DNA from: Chloroflexota bacterium
GTDB lineage: Bacteria > Chloroflexota > Dehalococcoidia > UBA2979
NCBI GenBank assembly: GCA_027592975.1
Contig: JAQCJS010000063.1
Location: 1 to 6,490 of the forward strand
DNA: 6,490 bases
Direction: 5' to 3'
Shown here: one piece after another, positions 1 to 6,490 of the stretch
Position numbering within the stretch: position 1 is the first letter of the stretch
Layout of the letters: each line of letters opens with the position of its first letter
Made by a program: the position numbers and the translations under genes
The notes under the pieces: model-generated
The model's input: the letters and a program-made list of their open reading frames with translations, nothing else
Databases searched by the model: none
What the model was told of the DNA's origin: nothing

Positions 1-857
1 GCCGTCGACACTGCCGCGGCGGTGACCACCAGCGCGCCCTCTTGCGGCGAGAAGCCCTTCGAGACGACGTACGGCGCCATGTGCACGAAGATCGACCACT
101 GCGGCAGGCCGGTGAGCGTGAAGCCGACGGTGGTGAGCCAGAACGCCCGGGTATGGAGCGCCTCGCGCACGGTCCATTCCCGCCCGTAACCGGCGGTCGT
201 GCCCGCCACGGACGTGATGGGAGGCGCGAGGTCCCCGTCCGGCAGCAGGCCCAGGTCGTCCGGGCGGCGGCGGATCGTGACCCACGCCATCGGCGCGATC
301 GCGCAGACGATGAGGCCCATCAACACCCAGACGAAGCGCCAGCCGTACGCCGCCTCCACGATCCCCATCAACGGCGCGAGCGCGATGCCCGCCGTCGCCG
401 ACCCGGCCGTGAAGAACATGAACGCCACCGCGCGCTTCCGCACGAACCAGTTGGCCATGGCGACCACGGGCCCCAGGTGGTTGAACCCCAGCGATGCGAC
501 GCCGTACAGCGACCAGATGGCGTAGTACTGCCACCTCGTCTGGACGCCCGCGAGCAGGATCAGCGCGATGCCGCCGGCCAGCAGCGAGACGGTCATGAGG
601 ACGCGCGGGCCGTAGCGATCCACGGTCGGCCCGAGCATCGCGGCGAGGAACCCGCCGAGCAGCGTCGCCACCGTGATCGCGGTCACGATCTCCGTGCGGC
701 TCCACCCCAGTTCCACGCCCATCGGCGCGATCAAGATGCCGAAGACCCAGCCCCCGGCGCTGGTGGCGAAGTGCTGCGACAGGAAGCAGGTCGCGACGAT
801 CCACCATCCGCGGAAGACGCGCGGCCGGGGCGGCGAGGCAGGCGGGGCGTTCACCAT
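1..857 (-). CDS. MFS transporter, partial (C-terminus beyond window edge)
   Basis: Major facilitator superfamily permease of the inner membrane, probably for a small organic acid. Reading the minus strand from the ATG at 857 gives 285 codons without a stop before the window ends; full family members have roughly 400-440 residues, so about two thirds is present. Visible parts: a short Pro-rich cytoplasmic N-terminus (1-15), a first membrane segment near 17-40, the sequence GWSRTEI at 51-57 before the second helix, a motif-A-like loop GPTVDRYGPR (76-85) between TM2 and TM3, hydrophobic helices near 86-104, 111-134, 143-165 and 173-193, and the central cytoplasmic loop with RRRPDDLGLLPDG (196-208). 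That loop and the GWSRTEI motif are typical of the monocarboxylate/oxalate-formate antiporter-like branch. TM7 begins near 238. The start lies 38 nt after the stop of the upstream CoA-transferase, so it is probably the last visible gene of that operon. No clear Shine-Dalgarno sequence is seen. MFS is secure; the substrate is an inference from context. Confidence 0.9.
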   Translation of the reverse strand, partial: MVNAPPASPPRPRVFRGWWIVATCFLSQHFATSAGGWVFGILIAPMGVELGWSRTEIVTAITVATLLGGFLAAMLGPTVDRYGPRVLMTVSLLAGGIALILLAGVQTRWQYYAIWSLYGVASLGFNHLGPVVAMANWFVRKRAVAFMFFTAGSATAGIALAPLMGIVEAAYGWRFVWVLMGLIVCAIAPMAWVTIRRRPDDLGLLPDGDLAPPITSVAGTTAGYGREWTVREALHTRAFWLTTVGFTLTGLPQWSIFVHMAPYVVSKGFSPQEGALVVTAAAVST

Positions 858-895: not shown

Positions 896-2155
896 CTAGA
901 AGACGACTTTCTCCGCGACCAGCGCGGCGATCTCCTCGTCCGTCAGGCCGAGGAGGCCGCCGAGGACGTCACGGTTGTGCTCGCCCAGCATCGGCCCGGG
1001 GCGCGGACGGTGGCCCGGGCTGGCGGACATCTTCCAGGGGACGTTCATCAGCGTGATCGGCCCGACGAGGTCGTGCCGCAGCCGCTCGATGAACCCCCGC
1101 TCCTCGAGGTGGGGGTCGGTGACGATCTGGTCGGAGCGCATGGAGGGCATCGCCGCCACGCCGGCCTCCTGCAGCACGCGCATCACCTCGTAGTCCGCAC
1201 GCGCGTTCGTCCACTCCGTGACCAGCGCGTCCAGCGCCTCACGGTGCACGACGCGGCTCGGGAGGTCGAGGAAGCGCGGATCCGCCGCCAGCCCGGGCTG
1301 GTCGATCGCGGTGCAGAAGCGCTGCCACTCGCCCTCGGAGGCGACGGCGATCGAGACCCAGTGGTCGTCGCCGGTGCAGCGGTAGACGCCGTGCGGCGCC
1401 ATGGAGGTGCTGCGGTTGCCGTCGCGGTGCCGCACGCGGCCGTTCATGGAGTAGTCCATCAGCGTGTCGCCGATGAGCGAGGCGAGCGCGTCGCGCGCGG
1501 CGAGGTCGATCCTCGTGCCCTCGCCGGTGCGCTGGCGGTGGTAAAGCGCAGAGAGCGTGGCGAAGACGCCGATGAACCCGCTGCGGAAGTCCGAGGATCC
1601 GCGGAACTCCGTGGGGGCGCCATCGGCATAGCCGGTCATGTGGCTGAGGCCGGCGAGCGCGGAGAACGTGGTCGCCAGCGCGCCGTACTCGCGCTCCGGG
1701 CCGGTGTCACCCATCGCCGCCATGGAGGTCATGATGATGCGCGGGTTGACCGCCTTCAGATCCTCGTAGCCGAGTCCGAGCTTCTGCATGACGCCGGGCC
1801 GGAAGTTTTCGATCACCACGTCGCTTTGCGCCACGAGGCGCTTGATCAACTCGATCGATCGCGGCTCGCGCAGGTTGAGCGTGACGCCGCGCTTGTTGTG
1901 GTTCAGGACGTGGAAGCCGGGCGCGTTCTTGGAGGGCCAGTCCGCGGGCGGGTTCGCGCGGTTGTTGCGGAGCTGCTCCAGGCGCGCGGCGCTTTCGATG
2001 CGGATCACGTCCGCGCCCAGCATCCCGAGCGTGCTGCAGGCGAACGGACCGGCGTAGATCGCACAGAAGTCCAGCACGCGGATGCCGTGCAGCGGCGCGC
2101 GCACCTCGTCCTCGGCGGGGCCGGTCGCGGGCGTGGGGGGCGTCTCGGTCGCCAT
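896..2155 (-). CDS. CaiB/BaiF (class III) CoA-transferase, B-type
   Basis: Cytoplasmic family III CoA-transferase, 419 residues, full length for the family (about 380-430). These enzymes move CoA from an acyl-CoA donor to a free carboxylate through a covalent aspartyl intermediate. Seen here: N-terminal fold motif GIRVLDF...AGPF (24-38), LGADVIRIES (46-55), NHNKRGVTLNL (85-95), the signature DVVIENFRPG (112-121) followed by LGLGYEDL, NPRI (137-140), the expected catalytic Asp at 189 in SSDFRSG (by alignment with Asp169 of Oxalobacter formyl-CoA transferase, from memory), GEGTRIDLAARDAL (211-224), DPHLEERGF (347-355) and the C-terminal PGPMLGEHN (386-394). The start chosen, ATG at 2155, shares its A with the TGA stop of the upstream gene (TGATG) and has AGGGG 7 nt before it. 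An open frame upstream to 2398 lies wholly inside the neighbour and lacks family similarity. It groups with the 6068 gene by its ADVI.IES..R motif. The substrate is unknown. Confidence 0.95.
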   Translation of the reverse strand: MATETPPTPATGPAEDEVRAPLHGIRVLDFCAIYAGPFACSTLGMLGADVIRIESAARLEQLRNNRANPPADWPSKNAPGFHVLNHNKRGVTLNLREPRSIELIKRLVAQSDVVIENFRPGVMQKLGLGYEDLKAVNPRIIMTSMAAMGDTGPEREYGALATTFSALAGLSHMTGYADGAPTEFRGSSDFRSGFIGVFATLSALYHRQRTGEGTRIDLAARDALASLIGDTLMDYSMNGRVRHRDGNRSTSMAPHGVYRCTGDDHWVSIAVASEGEWQRFCTAIDQPGLAADPRFLDLPSRVVHREALDALVTEWTNARADYEVMRVLQEAGVAAMPSMRSDQIVTDPHLEERGFIERLRHDLVGPITLMNVPWKMSASPGHRPRPGPMLGEHNRDVLGGLLGLTDEEIAALVAEKVVF

Positions 2156-3360
2156 CAGATCGCCCCTGCCGCGCGCAGCGCCGCGAGGTCGCCCTCGCCG
2201 TAGCCGATCGAGGCGAGCACGGTGGCGGTGTGCTGGCCGAGCGTCGGCGCGGGCAGGAACTCGCGCTTCGGGATGCCGGCAAACTGGTATGGCGTGGAGG
2301 GGTACCGGAACGTCCCGGCGACCGGGTGTTCGATCTCCACCAGGAAGCCGCGCGCCTCGGTCTGCTTCGACGTGAAGAAGTCCTCTGCGGTGTAGCACAC
2401 AGCGGTCGCGATTCCGGCCTTCTGGGTGAGGTGGAAGATCTCATCGGCCGTGCGCGTGCTGGCCCACTCGCCCATGCCCTGCCGGAGCAGCGCGTAGGAA
2501 CGGGAGCGGGTCAGGCGGTCGGTCAGTTCAGAGGCCTTCGCCCACTCGGGGTTGTCCATGACGCCGACCATTGTCTGCCACATGTCGTCCGCGCGCGCAT
2601 CGAGGACGACGTAGCCGTCCTTCGCAGGAACCACCCCGCCCGGCAAGTTGCGCGTGCGCCGCGTCTCCAGGACGCCGTCATCGCCGTAGCGCTCGATCTC
2701 GACACCCGATAGCAGCAGCAACCCCTCGTGCACGGAGACATCGATGACCTGGCCGTCACCGGTCGCCTCGCGCCAGAGCAGCGCGGCGACGATCGGGCTG
2801 GCGGCGATCACGCCGCCATCGCACTCCGCGAGGTGCGCGGGGCCGGCCACGGGCTCGCGGTCGGGGTGCAGGTCGTTCGCGTAGCCACCCGGCATCACGA
2901 AGCCCTCGCCGCCCGCGTGGAACAGATTCAGGTGGTGCGCGGCGTAGTCGCGGTAGGGGCCCGTCTGCCCGAACGGCGAGACGCGCGCCACGATGAGCCG
3001 CGGGTTCGCCGCGCGCAGCGTCTCCGGCGCCAGCCCGATCGCCTCCAGGTGCCCCGGCGGCTGGCCGTCCACCAGGACGTCCGCGTGCTGCGCGAGACGG
3101 AGGAAGACGGCGCGCCCCTCCGGCGTCGCCGGATCGAGCGTGATGCCCTGCTTGTTCGTGTTCAGGTTCAGGAAGAGGCCGCTGGCCTCCTCGTTCGGCA
3201 CGTCGCCGGGGAACGGCCCCTCGCGGCGCGTCCAGTCGCCCTGCCCGGGCTCCTCGACCTTGATGACCTCCGCGCCCAGGTCGCCGAAGAGCTTGGCGCA
3301 ATACGCCCCGCTGATGAACGGGCTGAACTCCAGGATGCGGACGCCGTCGAAAATGCCCAT
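2155..3360 (-). CDS. CaiB/BaiF (class III) CoA-transferase, A-type
   Basis: Cytoplasmic family III CoA-transferase of 401 residues, complete. Motifs in order: GVRILEFSPFISGAY (6-20), LGAEVIKVEEPGQGD (28-42), GPFPGD (48-53), SGLFLNLNTNKQGITLD (60-76), NPRLIVARVSPFGQTGPY (119-136), the expected catalytic Asp at 181 in HLAECDGG, GDGQVIDVSV (201-210), NPEW (270-273), EARGFLVE (335-342) and APTLGQHT (371-378). An oddity is DVLVDGQPPG at 94-103, where most relatives read V.ENFRPG; the Glu-Asn-Phe is replaced by Asp-Gly-Gln. The start at 3360 opens directly into the canonical N-terminus (MGIFDGVRILEF). The frame stays open up to 3585 but that part has no family similarity and overlaps the upstream gene. 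No Shine-Dalgarno sequence is visible before this ATG, so it may rely on coupling to the dehydratase gene 29 nt upstream. The stop overlaps the next ATG by one base. Paired with the B-type gene it may form a heteromer; that is inference. Confidence 0.95.
   Translation of the reverse strand: MGIFDGVRILEFSPFISGAYCAKLFGDLGAEVIKVEEPGQGDWTRREGPFPGDVPNEEASGLFLNLNTNKQGITLDPATPEGRAVFLRLAQHADVLVDGQPPGHLEAIGLAPETLRAANPRLIVARVSPFGQTGPYRDYAAHHLNLFHAGGEGFVMPGGYANDLHPDREPVAGPAHLAECDGGVIAASPIVAALLWREATGDGQVIDVSVHEGLLLLSGVEIERYGDDGVLETRRTRNLPGGVVPAKDGYVVLDARADDMWQTMVGVMDNPEWAKASELTDRLTRSRSYALLRQGMGEWASTRTADEIFHLTQKAGIATAVCYTAEDFFTSKQTEARGFLVEIEHPVAGTFRYPSTPYQFAGIPKREFLPAPTLGQHTATVLASIGYGEGDLAALRAAGAI
2163..2167 (-). 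promoter_or_regulatory. Shine-Dalgarno site of CoA-transferase B inside CoA-transferase A
   Basis: AGGGG on the minus strand, 7 nt before the ATG at 2155 and inside the last codons of the upstream gene. Together with the TGATG stop-start overlap it supports termination-reinitiation coupling and chooses 2155 over any upstream start. Confidence 0.6.
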
Positions 3361-3389
3361 GTGCGCGAGTCTACCGTGCGCGGCGCGGG

Positions 3390-4658
3390 CTAGGAGTACC
3401 AGCCCGGCGGCGGGCTGGCGAATTTCGGCGGCAACTGCACCGGGCCGAGCTCCCGCGACGGCAGCAGCACCTCCGCGCGGCCGGGGGCGGTGACGCGACC
3501 GCGCTGATCCTCCAGCCACACCTCGATCTCCACGATCGACTCGCCGTGCTCCTGTCGCTTGCCGGTGACGCGGCCCTTCGCCCACTCCGTGTCGCCGATG
3601 TAGACGAAGCGCCGGATCTGGTTGTCGATCATGCGCAGCCAGCCGGCGTCACCCATCCAGTTGGTGAGGACGTGCGTGGCGAAGGCAATGCGCTGGGAGC
3701 CGTAGTCGTACGCGACGGGATTGCCCGTGCGCTGGGCGATGCCGTTGTCCCAGTGCACCGCCTCGATCGGGTCAGGGATGCCCGCGCTGTTGATCAGGTA
3801 GGCGCGCGGGATCTTCTTGCGCTGGTCGTGCGCCAGCTTGAAGGAGAGCGACCCGCGCATCTGCAGACCCAGGCCGGAGGCGAACGTGAGCATGTCTGTG
3901 ACGGTCAGCGGGCCGTACACCGTGGGCGTTAGATCGTCCCCCACGTTCACGTCCTCGTAGTAGCGAGGGTTCGCGCCGCGGATCTCCATCCGCTCGTAGT
4001 CCGCGTCAATCCGCTCGATGTCCTCGGGCGTGTAGGTCTGGGGCTCGATGGCGGCGTACTTCTCGCGCTCGCCCCACTCCTTCTGGCGGCCGCCACGGAT
4101 GCTGGAGTTCGTACGACGGATCACCAGCTCGCCGCGCTGGTTCCAGACCTCCTCGCACTGGTACTGGAGGACCGTGCGGCCGGTGAACTGGCTCCGCTTC
4201 TCGATGATGTCGCCGAGGAAAGAGCGCGGCGTCAGCACGTCGCCCGGGTGAACCGGCAGCAGGAACTGCGTGTGCGTCCCCGCGTACCACGTGTGGATGC
4301 CGGAGAGCGCGTCGCGCGAGCGCTCGATCTCCTCGGCCGTCCACTCGCGCTGCTCGGGCACGCCGACCGTCTCGAAGAAGGTGGGCGAGCCGATGATGCC
4401 GCGCCAGCGGGTGGTCTTCGCGTAGTCGGGGTCGGAGTAGAGCGGGTTGTCCATGCCCAGCGACTCCGCGTAGTGGCGGATCGCGTCGCGGGTTGCCTCG
4501 GTGTTCCACTTGTTGCGGCGGATGGCGCGCTCCGCGCCGACGCGGCTCTTGGCGAGTGCGATCATCTCGTCCGTGATCTCGCGCTCCGCCTCGCCCGAGG
4601 CGTACGTGCCGTACTCCTGCTCCTTCACCACCGGAGCGGTTTGATCCTGCTGAGTCAT
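3390..4658 (-). CDS. Double hot-dog MaoC/FAS1-like acyl-CoA dehydratase/hydratase
   Basis: Predicted cytoplasmic protein of 422 residues with two hot-dog domains, as in FAS1-like dehydratase and eukaryotic hydratase-2 proteins. Such enzymes add or remove water across the 2,3-bond of an acyl-CoA. N-terminal domain about 27-200: GMDNPLYSDPDYAKTTRW (68-85) sits where hydratases carry the D.NP.H motif, with Tyr74 in place of His; PVHPGD (135-140) and RRTNSSIR (181-188) follow. C-terminal domain about 230-400: NVGDDLTP (238-245), VHWDNGIAQRTG (301-312) with His302 in the place expected for the catalytic His, YDYGSQRIAF (317-326), LTNWMGD (331-337), IGDTEWAKGRVTGKR (354-368). These blocks resemble the approximately 400-residue MaoC-type proteins of Actinobacteria and Chloroflexota (from memory). 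The start is supported by GGAGG 5 nt upstream and a promoter 30-60 bp upstream. It is the first gene of the leftward operon, 29 nt before CoA-transferase A. The fold is secure; direction of reaction and substrate are not known. Confidence 0.88.
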   Translation of the reverse strand: MTQQDQTAPVVKEQEYGTYASGEAEREITDEMIALAKSRVGAERAIRRNKWNTEATRDAIRHYAESLGMDNPLYSDPDYAKTTRWRGIIGSPTFFETVGVPEQREWTAEEIERSRDALSGIHTWYAGTHTQFLLPVHPGDVLTPRSFLGDIIEKRSQFTGRTVLQYQCEEVWNQRGELVIRRTNSSIRGGRQKEWGEREKYAAIEPQTYTPEDIERIDADYERMEIRGANPRYYEDVNVGDDLTPTVYGPLTVTDMLTFASGLGLQMRGSLSFKLAHDQRKKIPRAYLINSAGIPDPIEAVHWDNGIAQRTGNPVAYDYGSQRIAFATHVLTNWMGDAGWLRMIDNQIRRFVYIGDTEWAKGRVTGKRQEHGESIVEIEVWLEDQRGRVTAPGRAEVLLPSRELGPVQLPPKFASPPPGWYS

Positions 4659-4663
4659 GCGAG

Positions 4664-4668
4664 CCTCC
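4664..4668 (-). promoter_or_regulatory. Shine-Dalgarno site of the dehydratase gene
   Basis: GGAGG on the minus strand with a 5-nt spacer to the ATG at 4658. It is the strongest ribosome binding core in the window and fixes the start of the first gene of the leftward operon. Confidence 0.75.
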
Positions 4669-4687
4669 AGGGCGGACGAATAGAGCC

Positions 4688-4716
4688 GGTCTAACGCGAT
4701 GCGCAGAGCCTGTCAA
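4688..4716 (-). promoter_or_regulatory. Sigma-70-like promoter for the leftward operon
   Basis: On the minus strand a perfect TTGACA (4716-4711) is followed by a 17-nt spacer and TAGACC (4693-4688), which matches the TATAAT -10 consensus at three of six positions. A start of transcription near 4681 would leave a leader of about 22 nt that contains the GGAGG ribosome binding site of the dehydratase gene at the right distance. The -35 match, exact spacer and downstream geometry are seen in the sequence; activity is inferred. The -10 box is poor, as is common in high-GC bacteria. Confidence 0.5.
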
Positions 4717-4730
4717 ACAGTGCTTTACTG
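4710..4730. promoter_or_regulatory. Overlapping short inverted repeats, possible operator
   Basis: Two small palindromes share bases: CTGT-CAA-ACAG (4710-4720) and CAGT-GCTTT-ACTG (4718-4730). The first covers the -35 hexamer of the leftward promoter and the second lies just upstream of it, over the weak rightward -10 candidate. A repressor or activator bound here could act on both operons. The arms are only 4 bp, so chance is a serious alternative, and no regulator gene is visible in the window. Confidence 0.25.
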
Positions 4731-4795
4731 GCGAACACACCCCGCCAACTCCTACAACCGGCACCGAAGCCGCGCCCGTCCAGAGGCTGCCAGCC

Positions 4796-6067
4796 ATGAC
4801 CGCCGCCACCTCCGGCCCCACCGCCCAGACACACCCCGGCCCGCTCACGGGCCTGCGTGTCGTGGAGGTCGGCGACCTGGTCACCGCGCCGTTCACCGCG
4901 AAGATCCTCGCGGACCTGGGTGCCACGGTGCTGAAGGTCGAGATCCCCCGCACGGGCGACCGGAGCCGCGTGGTCGGCCCGTTCCCGCAGGATCAGCCGC
5001 ACCCGGAGCACAGCGGCCTGTTCGTCTACCTGAACGCGAAGAAGCGCGGCGTCACGCTCGACCTCGAGTCCGCGACCGGGCGGGCGCTGTTCGCGCGGCT
5101 GATCGCAGACGCCGATGTGCTGGTAGAGAACGTCGCCCCGCAGGACTCCGCGCGCCTCGGCCTCGCGCCGGAGGCGGTACGGCGGGCGAACCCGGGCATC
5201 ATCCACCTGTCGATCACGCCGTTCGGGCACGTCGGCCCATACGCCTCGCACCGGGGGTACGGCCTGAACGTTGCCGCGATGAGCGGCCTCGTCCTCACCA
5301 CCGGCGAGGCGGGCCGGCCGCCGCTACCGCCGCCCGACTTCCAGGAGGACTTCTTCACCGGCGTGGTCGGCGGCCTGAGCGTGATGCTCGCGCTCGCTGG
5401 CCGCGACCGTGCCGAGGCCGCTGGCGAACCCGCCGAGGCCCGCGGTGAGTGGATCGACCTCTCCGGCGCGAACGCGTGGATGACGTTCCAGACGGGCATG
5501 GCGGTGCTGCAGTGGATCTTCAGCGGTCGCCGCACCATCCGGCAGGGTCGTCGCAGCGCCGGCAATCCGTACCCCTACGCCATCCTGCCCTGCGCGGACG
5601 GCTACATCCGGCTGATCGCGATGCAAAAGATCGAGTGGACGCGCTTCGTCGACATCCTCGGCAACCCGGAGTGGACGAAGGACGCGCGCTTCCAGAACCG
5701 GCTGGTGATGAACCAGAAGTACCACGAGGAGTTGGACGCGCTGATCCAGCCGTGGCTGTCCGCGCGCACCAAGAACCAGCTGCAGGACATCTTCTACACG
5801 GGCGGCCTCCCCTTCACGCCGGTGAAGGACTACCGCGACGTGTTCAACGACCCGCAGCTCCGCGCGCGCGGCTTCTTCCTCCCGGCCGACCAGCCCGGCA
5901 TCGGTCAGTTCGATGTGCCCGGGCCACCCTACCACCTGCGCAACGAACCGCTGGGGGCGTGGCGGCCTGCGCCAACGCTCGGCGAGCACAATGACGAGGT
6001 GTACGGCGATCACCTGCGCGTGAGCGCGCGCGACCTGGTGGCGCTGCAGCAGGCGGGGGTGATCTAG
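4796..6067 (+). CDS. CaiB/BaiF (class III) CoA-transferase, A'-type
   Basis: Cytoplasmic family III CoA-transferase, 423 residues, complete. Motifs in order: GLRVVEVGDLVTAPF (19-33), LGATVLKVEIPRTGD (41-55), GPFPQD (61-66), SGLFVYLNAKKRGVTLDL (73-90), DVLVEN (107-112), NPGIIHLSITPFGHVGPY (132-149), the expected catalytic Asp at 185 in FQEDFFTG, WIDLSGANAW (219-228), GNPEWTKDARF (289-299), DPQLRARGFF (352-361) and APTLGEHND (392-400). Residues 203-218 are an Ala/Glu-rich stretch where relatives usually have a shorter R..TG.GQ turn, so there is a small insertion before the WID motif. An 18-residue N-terminal tail precedes the fold. The start at 4796 has AGAGG 9 nt upstream. The gene begins the rightward operon and its TAG stop directly abuts the ATG of the next CoA-transferase. 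It resembles the A-type gene on the other side of the promoter region more than its own neighbour. The substrate is unknown. Confidence 0.95.
   Translation: MTAATSGPTAQTHPGPLTGLRVVEVGDLVTAPFTAKILADLGATVLKVEIPRTGDRSRVVGPFPQDQPHPEHSGLFVYLNAKKRGVTLDLESATGRALFARLIADADVLVENVAPQDSARLGLAPEAVRRANPGIIHLSITPFGHVGPYASHRGYGLNVAAMSGLVLTTGEAGRPPLPPPDFQEDFFTGVVGGLSVMLALAGRDRAEAAGEPAEARGEWIDLSGANAWMTFQTGMAVLQWIFSGRRTIRQGRRSAGNPYPYAILPCADGYIRLIAMQKIEWTRFVDILGNPEWTKDARFQNRLVMNQKYHEELDALIQPWLSARTKNQLQDIFYTGGLPFTPVKDYRDVFNDPQLRARGFFLPADQPGIGQFDVPGPPYHLRNEPLGAWRPAPTLGEHNDEVYGDHLRVSARDLVALQQAGVI
6054..6064 (+). promoter_or_regulatory. Extended Shine-Dalgarno-like site before the second rightward gene
   Basis: CGGGGGTGATC matches the complement of the 16S rRNA 3' end (AGGAGGTGATC) at nine of eleven positions, and one of the two differences (A to G) still allows a G-U pair. 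The G-run ends 8 nt before the ATG at 6068. The same bases encode the last residues, Ala-Gly-Val-Ile, of the upstream protein, so part of the match may be a by-product of coding. Confidence 0.5.
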
Positions 6068-6490
6068 ATGACGAACCCCTCGACGGGCGCGCTGCTCTCG
6101 GACATCCGAGTCGTGGACATGGGCTGGGTGTGGGCCGGCGGCGTCACCGGGCACGTGCTGGCGGACTGGGGCGCGGACGTCATCAAGATCGAGTCCTCGC
6201 AGCGCATCGACCCCGCGCGGCAGGGCCGCCCGATCATCGGCGACGTGCCCGACCCCGAGCAGAACCCGATGTTCCACAACGTGAACCGCGGCAAGCGCTC
6301 GATCACCCTCGACATCACGAAGCCGGAGGGTGCCGAGGTGGTGCGCCGGCTAGTGGCGACCGCGGACGTGGTGATCGAGAACATGACGCCGGGCGCGCTG
6401 ACGCGCGCGGGACTGGACTACGAGGCGCTGTCCGCGGTGAACCCTCGGATCGTGATGGTGAGCCAGCCGATCGCCGGGCAGACCGGGCCG
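6068..6490 (+). CDS. CaiB/BaiF (class III) CoA-transferase, B'-type, partial (C-terminus beyond window edge)
   Basis: The first 141 codons of a further family III CoA-transferase; the frame is open to the end of the window, so about one third of a typical protein is seen. Motifs: SDIRVVDMGWVWAGG (11-25), LADWGADVIKIESSQR (31-46), VNRGKRSITLDITKPEG (72-88), DVVIENMTPGALTRAGLDY (99-117), NPRIVMVSQ (123-131) and GQTGP at the cut end. The region that would carry the catalytic Asp is not in the window, so activity cannot be judged. The ATG follows the TAG stop of the upstream gene with no gap (TAGATG) and has an extended Shine-Dalgarno-like match, so the two are very probably translated together. 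Its GADVIKIES..R block is close to that of the B-type protein at 896-2155. An opposite-strand open frame here (6064-6384) is a shadow. Confidence 0.93.
   Translation, partial: MTNPSTGALLSDIRVVDMGWVWAGGVTGHVLADWGADVIKIESSQRIDPARQGRPIIGDVPDPEQNPMFHNVNRGKRSITLDITKPEGAEVVRRLVATADVVIENMTPGALTRAGLDYEALSAVNPRIVMVSQPIAGQTGP

Follow-up and report, generated by a model that had tools for sequence, protein, structure and literature searches.

The stretch of DNA analysed here is the first 6,490 nucleotides of contig JAQCJS010000063.1 (assembly GCA_027592975.1, forward strand), from a Chloroflexota bacterium of the class Dehalococcoidia; this whole stretch is referred to below as the window. It holds six genes, four of which encode class III coenzyme A (CoA)-transferases. 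These four form two pairs on opposite strands, each with an A-type gene followed by a B-type gene, and are designated A and B on the minus strand and A' and B' on the plus strand. By position in the window, the features are:

3 to 857, minus strand: partial MFS transporter gene, 285 residues in the window, running off its edge (Pfam MFS_1, 79.4 bits).
896 to 2155, minus strand: B, BbsF-type class III CoA-transferase of 419 amino acids (PF02515, 363.6 bits; best PDB match BbsF, 9fn0_B; codon of D189 at 1589-1591).
2155 to 3360, minus strand: A, BbsE-type class III CoA-transferase of 401 amino acids (PF02515, 295 bits; best PDB match BbsE, 9fn0_A; codon of E179 at 2824-2826; AlphaFold model with a predicted local distance difference test score, pLDDT, of 87.3).
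3390 to 4658, minus strand: FAS1/MaoC-type (double hot-dog) dehydratase/hydratase of 422 amino acids (PF13452, 58.7 bits; alignment; model and fold search).
4659 to 4795, no strand: divergent intergenic region of 137 bases between the two operons (open reading frame map).
4796 to 6067, plus strand: A', class III CoA-transferase of the BbsE-type clade, 423 amino acids (PF02515, 305.6 bits; placed by tree; codon of D185 at 5348-5350).
6068 to 6490, plus strand: B', BbsF-type class III CoA-transferase, first 141 amino acids up to the window edge (PF02515, 158 bits; catalytic position beyond the window).

A preliminary description of this DNA had named four class III CoA-transferases with these coordinates and strands. 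All four calls were right, with PF02515 scores (rounded, 295, 364, 306 and 158 bits for A, B, A' and B') far above the cut-off of 23.3. The description had also set the pairs around one promoter region. The divergent gap at 4659-4795 does lie between the operons, but the dehydratase gene, which was left unmentioned, separates A from it. It is thus the dehydratase (4658-3390) and not A that heads the minus-strand operon, followed in order of transcription by A (3360-2155), B (2155-896) and the MFS gene (857 to the edge), the last of these also absent from the earlier account. The ATG of B overlaps the stop of A by one base. On the plus strand, A' (4796-6067) is followed by B' (6068 to the edge). 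A consensus scan for sigma-70-like sites found none anywhere in the window, and a single ad hoc search for a DNA pattern was also negative.

The two gene types are named here after BbsEF, the succinyl-CoA:(R)-benzylsuccinate CoA-transferase of anaerobic toluene breakdown (PDB 9fn0, 9fol), which like A and B comprises two class III subunits. The best PDB match of A was BbsE (E-value 8e-43) and that of B was BbsF (1e-63). Both A' and B' matched 4ed9 first, with BbsE second for A' and BbsF second for B'. A, the one transferase that was modelled, has a predicted Frc-like fold, with SUGCT, BbsE and YfdW as top fold matches (template modelling score, TM, ∼0.86).

All trees were quick ones, with support from the Shimodaira-Hasegawa-like approximate likelihood ratio test (SH-aLRT) only and with the catalytic column left in. 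The first had 65 rows, 55 of them domains from genome G001 ('Chloroflexi bacterium isolate RH-26jul17-182'), which carries the nearest relative locus, L001. One clade of 14 rows (SH-aLRT 99) contained A, A' and BbsE, and another of 13 rows (SH-aLRT 97) contained B, the B' orthologues and BbsF, so A grouped with A' and B with B' as the preliminary description had proposed. On a sparse tree, holding A and B as one clade was rejected by the approximately unbiased test (p-AU 0.006), and holding A' and B' as one clade was not (p-AU 0.195). Protein identity is 34.5% between A and A' and 37.1% between B and B' (the G001 orthologue standing for B'), versus 27.8-31.2% for the four combinations of an A-type with a B-type protein, a likeness within each type beyond what chance would give. 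From tree and gene order, each pair joins a BbsE-type gene to a BbsF-type gene, back to back with the other pair, B' being assigned through its orthologues. Most of the motifs that had been listed for the two types were also recovered: GPFP, SGLF..LN..K.G.TLD and DL.AL..AG.I in A and A', and ADVI.IES..R in B and B'. The G.GD turn after KVE held only in part, A reading KVEEPGQGD and A' KVEIPRTGD, with GD alone common to both.

The catalytic aspartate marks the split between A and B. The position was anchored in the alignment by D178 of BbsF, PDB entry 9fol being titled 'D178-CoA adduct'. It is occupied by D189 in B, E179 in A, D185 in A' and Y171 in BbsE; B' is cut by the window edge upstream of the site, and its orthologue in L001 (L001:11269-12504) has D177. 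The A-B pair thus has its Asp in B only (E/D), and the A'-B' orthologues, both in L001 and in L002 from a Baikal 'Dehalococcoidia bacterium' (genome G002), have Asp in both subunits (D/D). D185 of A' is invariant in all 15 aligned sequences, that of the window included, and both full-length B' orthologues carry the Asp.

The same asymmetry was seen in a set of 78 BbsEF-type tandem pairs, BbsEF included, in 74 of which A comes first. Asp is present in B in 78/78 and in A in 13/78, the latter being a share in a non-random sample, since many two-Asp loci were found by their likeness to A or A'. In the remaining A-type proteins the site is most often Tyr (14/78) or Glu (13/78), with Leu, Ala, Phe, His and others also found. 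Twelve of the 13 two-Asp pairs belong to a 14-row set around A' or a 17-row set around A. On a denser tree of 92 rows (88 of them A-type), the Asp/not-Asp label requires at least 10 changes, at least 4 of which are forced by starred branches. The 78 pairs leave out near-duplicate or repeated loci (L018-L023, L103-L105, L115, L117, L120, and L002, re-entered once), pairs with a member below 330 amino acids and pairs not typed as one A1 plus one B1.

Such pairs abound in the genome that carries L001. The PF02515 family was present in 39 of 40 genomes drawn as relatives, G001 included, and one 2.8-Mb relative gave 152 candidates at a first look, a number that is unconfirmed. The 2.3-Mb genome G001 has 59 PF02515 matches, and the 58 domains resolved make up 22 same-strand tandem pairs and 14 unpaired genes. 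Adjacency of A and B in other genomes, proposed as a check in the preliminary description, is widespread. Moreover, pairs are fused in one reading frame in 8 of 22 cases in G001, 14 of 28 in G018 and 6 of 8 in G026, a strong indication that the two members of a pair go together. Across the complete pairs of these three genomes, exactly one Asp was found in 55/56, two in 1/56 and none in 0/56, the single two-Asp exception being the orthologue of A'-B'. The complete unpaired genes of the same genomes have Asp in 37/38. These counts rest on 58 domains from 59 matches in G001, 75 from 82 in G018 and 23 from 24 in G026, same-frame pieces having been merged and several short G018 fragments omitted. 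Also dropped were the G001 pair C58_31 (first gene cut by a contig end, second with Ser), the G018 pair L126_1866 (both Asp, second incomplete) and the incomplete single genes C36 and C51 (both Asp).

The rule of one Asp extends beyond the BbsEF type. G001 has a second set of tandem or fused pairs (e.g. L049, L050, L051, L029, L033 and L041), whose members form two clades apart from those of BbsE and BbsF. All 10 complete G001 pairs of this set have one Asp, in the first gene in nine and in the second gene in an order-swapped one. Two order-swapped G001 pairs, L039 (C45) and L049:838-3225 (C8), still hold one subunit of each type; three order-swapped pairs with one subunit of each type were also seen in G018. 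Over the 78 pairs, distances among A proteins and among B proteins correlate with a Mantel r of 0.81; none of 2000 permutations was as high, the largest reaching 0.10, and r is 0.56 where both distances exceed 50%.

Two variants were noted in passing. Loci L016-L023, labelled Acidimicrobiales or kin, hold a conserved fused CoA-transferase with Thr and Asp at the two catalytic positions, and a Thermoflexus-labelled bin (L004:7360-14956) has three consecutive CoA-transferase pairs with E/D, D/D and L/D.

From the gene order, family membership, clades, catalytic residues and co-inheritance described above, we infer how these proteins would assemble, what they would catalyse and on what kind of substrate. 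We think it likely that the window encodes two distinct heteromeric class III CoA-transferases of the BbsEF type in divergent operons of a probably freshwater, Dehalococcoidia-like bacterium, forming a predicted module with the hydratase and the MFS transporter. Enzymes of class III form interlocked dimers, and each active site of YfdE combines an Asp of one subunit with a loop of the other (PMC3720670). The A and B subunits of each pair would interlock as one enzyme. In A-B, D189 of B would be the sole nucleophile, forming the acyl-anhydride and CoA-thioester intermediates, and A, with its Glu, would probably be catalytically inactive, contributing the opposite wall of the active site. Under a geometry like that of YfdE, the variable loop of A would face the working Asp, which would make A the specificity subunit. 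In A'-B', with Asp in both subunits, there would be two active sites per pair. Since A-B has one Asp and the A'-B' orthologues have two, A-B is probably a one-site heteromer and A'-B' a two-site heteromer, and the latter seems to depart stably from the one-Asp rule.

The window could instead encode four separate homodimeric CoA-transferases that are neighbours by chance. Homodimeric single-gene members of the CoA-transferase family exist besides YfdE. YfdE itself is a dimer of this kind (PMC3720670), and the unpaired genes in the genomes examined nearly all keep their Asp. An A homodimer, however, would lack the catalytic Asp and should be inactive, and chance proximity sits poorly with one Asp in all but one of the complete pairs, with the strong correlation of A and B distances, with the many fusions and with the presence of both subunit types even in order-swapped pairs. 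We regard it as highly improbable. A different possibility keeps the heteromers and takes A itself to be catalytic, with Glu acting in place of Asp, in which case A-B would also have two sites. The change is conservative and looks recent, as P0014 and A have Glu and their close kin P0015-P0017 have Asp, and Glu is second only to Tyr as the A-type substitute. On the other hand, replacement of Asp430 by Ala, Glu or Asn in the two-domain protein PtmU4 lowered activity 125-400-fold (PMC6006322), so Glu is unlikely to replace Asp well, and the variety of residues found elsewhere at the A-type site, from Tyr and Leu to Ala, Phe and His, suggests that the site is dispensable in A. We regard a catalytic A as quite improbable.

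Some observations weigh against the assignment of the pairs as heteromers, or against the numbers behind it. From YfdE, an A subunit without Asp might be expected to keep the GNxH-like loop that serves the Asp of its partner. The alignment gave the opposite: the loop Asn is kept in 55/76 B and 5/68 A proteins and the Gly in 64/76 B and 42/68 A, with the His kept in 26/76 B, although this evidence is weak, the MAFFT columns being gappy there. Because the counted genes are related to one another, the pair counts are not a tally of independent events, and a Fisher value calculated for the three genomes is not to be taken as a probability. In addition, three A-type rows gapped at the site (all from G018 pairs) were scored as having no Asp, and the Asp of B', which is cut before the site, was taken from orthologues.

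How the two pairs came to lie together was examined through their relatives. L001 has the same six-gene order as the window, with protein identities of 85% for A, 86% for B, 91% for A', 97% for B' (over 133 amino acids) and 93% for the dehydratase. Its MFS gene, directly after B, is complete (L001:4764-6053, 429 amino acids, MFS_1). Two closer single-protein matches, labelled Dehalococcoidia, reach 91% to A and 92% to A'. Judged from matching sizes, A and A' homologues also seem to lie together on contigs of 7606, 4945 and 2597027 bases. A plasmid tblastn search with A returned 1189 records, none reaching 60% identity. L002, in which A' and the dehydratase (P0253) are each 71% identical to those of the window, has the order dehydratase-A'-B' with no second CoA-transferase pair within the 14 kb examined; its assembly is 1.2 Mb with only four PF02515-family members, which makes the absence of A-B there weak evidence.

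Of the two origins offered in the preliminary description, the recruitment of two related heteromeric enzymes fits best, the two being brought or kept together, and duplication of one A-B unit with inversion, making both pairs in place, was weakened by the denser tree. Such a duplication would be compatible with both pairs being heteromers. It is suggested by A-A' and B-B' being mutual counterparts, and the sparse tree left a recent event open: joining A and A' gave a log-likelihood (lnL) 15.6 units above the free tree (p-AU 0.89), and B and B' already formed one branch there, with a support of 7. In the 92-row tree, however, A lies with P0014-P0017 in one starred clade and A' in a separate starred set of 14 rows, and their union costs 73.9 lnL units and is rejected (p-AU 0.028). 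Joining B with B' costs 31.0 lnL units and is not rejected (p 0.093), with B and B' in different starred sets. The nearest loci tell a similar story. Leaving L092 apart, those of A are L007, L087 and L088 and those of B are L088, L090, L007 and L087; leaving L092 and B itself apart, those of A' are L106, L097 and L003 and those of B' are L003, L107 and L004. A and B have L007, L087 and L088 in common and A' and B' have L003, these lists showing no overlap between the two pairs, and thus each pair appears to have been passed down as a unit. L092 is near all four proteins, and B itself ranks within the top eight for B' (37.7-38.0% identity), both of which favour duplication; the dehydratase-A'-B' arrangement of L002, with no A-B beside it, does not. 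Overall, we consider duplication in place improbable.

The remaining genes point to a possible pathway. The model of the dehydratase (pLDDT 86.3) matches the folds of MaoC-like dehydratases, the mesaconyl-CoA hydratase MeaC (8hgn) and itaconyl-CoA hydratase at 12-16% identity. Residues D296 and H302, candidates for the catalytic Asp...His pair of the second hot-dog domain, are invariant in 28/28 aligned sequences (the window's included), with a D-x5-H spacing. The usual Asp...His spacing of hydratase-2 enzymes is different, and in an alignment with HadB a Pro lies opposite the HadB Asp that we take to be catalytic. The dehydratase did not prove useful as a marker for the complete module: a match at E 1e-40 was found in 40 of 245 genomes drawn from the class, with 93% identity in G001 and at most 46% in the next best, a table that excludes G002 and the 71% dehydratase of L002. 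The flanks covered in those genomes are ∼1.5 kb, so linkage to CoA-transferases was judged only close by. The dehydratase family is multi-copy in several relatives. Our best guess is that the locus is a catabolic module for a carboxylic acid: the MFS transporter would probably take up the acid, the transferases would probably transfer CoA to it from another CoA ester in an ATP-independent step, and the MaoC-type hydratase would probably hydrate or dehydrate the resulting CoA ester.

The five neighbouring genes scanned in L001 encode an NAD-binding protein, a luciferase-like monooxygenase, a permease, the MFS transporter and a histidine kinase. Beyond the MFS gene, and on its strand, lie the genes for the luciferase-like monooxygenase and an amino-acid permease (L001:2200-3297 and 3373-4701, minus), fitting the monooxygenase-rich theme of SAR202.

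CaiB/BaiF genes are usually annotated singly, and many of those seen here are better read as two-gene enzymes, usually with one active site. This alters gene counts, functional guesses and the strategy for expressing members of the strongly expanded family in SAR202-like bacteria, for which a role in the breakdown of recalcitrant organic matter has been suggested. A one-site heteromer and, next to it, a probable two-site one also allow a direct test of the loss of the second Asp. More tentatively, and with somewhat less than even confidence, we propose that this lineage has several dozen different heteromeric CoA-transferases, each with one subunit that is retained but catalytically dead, the repeated loss of Asp having freed its side of the shared active site to diversify in substrate range as the Asp subunit stayed fixed. 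A'-B' would then be a conserved two-site enzyme and A-B one made one-site by an Asp-to-Glu change, within a single catabolic locus.

Expansion of the family in these bacteria has been described before. Landry et al. 2017 reported 62 Sfam 1517 proteins plus 11 more in five partial SAR202 genomes and proposed ATP-free CoA transfer (PMC5395668), the SAR202/Chloroflexota CaiB/BaiF expansion comprising dozens of members as it does here, and an expansion is also known from a sponge-symbiont study (PMC6306507). The words tandem, fused, heterodimer and two-domain do not occur in the main text of Landry et al. 2017, nor five CoA-transferase terms in the main text of the SAR202 paper of Saw et al. 2020. 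A one-Asp-per-pair rule was not stated in the literature searched, outside which most subscription papers lie, among them any on the structure of BbsEF; a conserved Asp in the C-terminal domain of PtmU4 and its homologues has been noted (PMC6006322).

Among known systems, BbsEF is the closest. As in A-B, its Asp is in the F/B subunit only, and in Geobacter, Desulfogranum and NaphS2 the loci resembling BbsEF are tandem pairs too. According to PMC5592240, which cites Leutwein and Heider 2001, 'benzoylsuccinate CoA-transferase' is an alpha2beta2 enzyme. The window proteins differ from BbsEF in identity (31.9% between A and BbsE, 34.2% between B and BbsF), in having Glu in A where BbsE has Tyr, and in the Asp of both subunits in the A'-B' orthologues. 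PtmU4 and DddD carry two CoA-transferase domains as one unit (PMC6006322), like the fused pairs of this lineage, whereas the window pairs are separate genes; PtmU4 and DddD are outside the trees. In the methylaspartate cycle of Haloarcula, the mesaconate CoA-transferase Mct acts with mesaconyl-CoA hydratase, a class III transferase with an (R)-specific MaoC-type hydratase (PMC5592240), and the model of the window dehydratase resembles MeaC, as noted above. However, Mct is a homodimer (PMC5592240) and the window has two predicted heteromeric transferases, whose scores with the NCBIfam Mct model (165, 203, 165 and 92 bits) are far below its cut-off of 700. Thus, heteromeric BbsEF-type and two-domain class III enzymes were already known, and what the present analysis adds is their pairing, with its one-Asp asymmetry, within the SAR202-like expansion.

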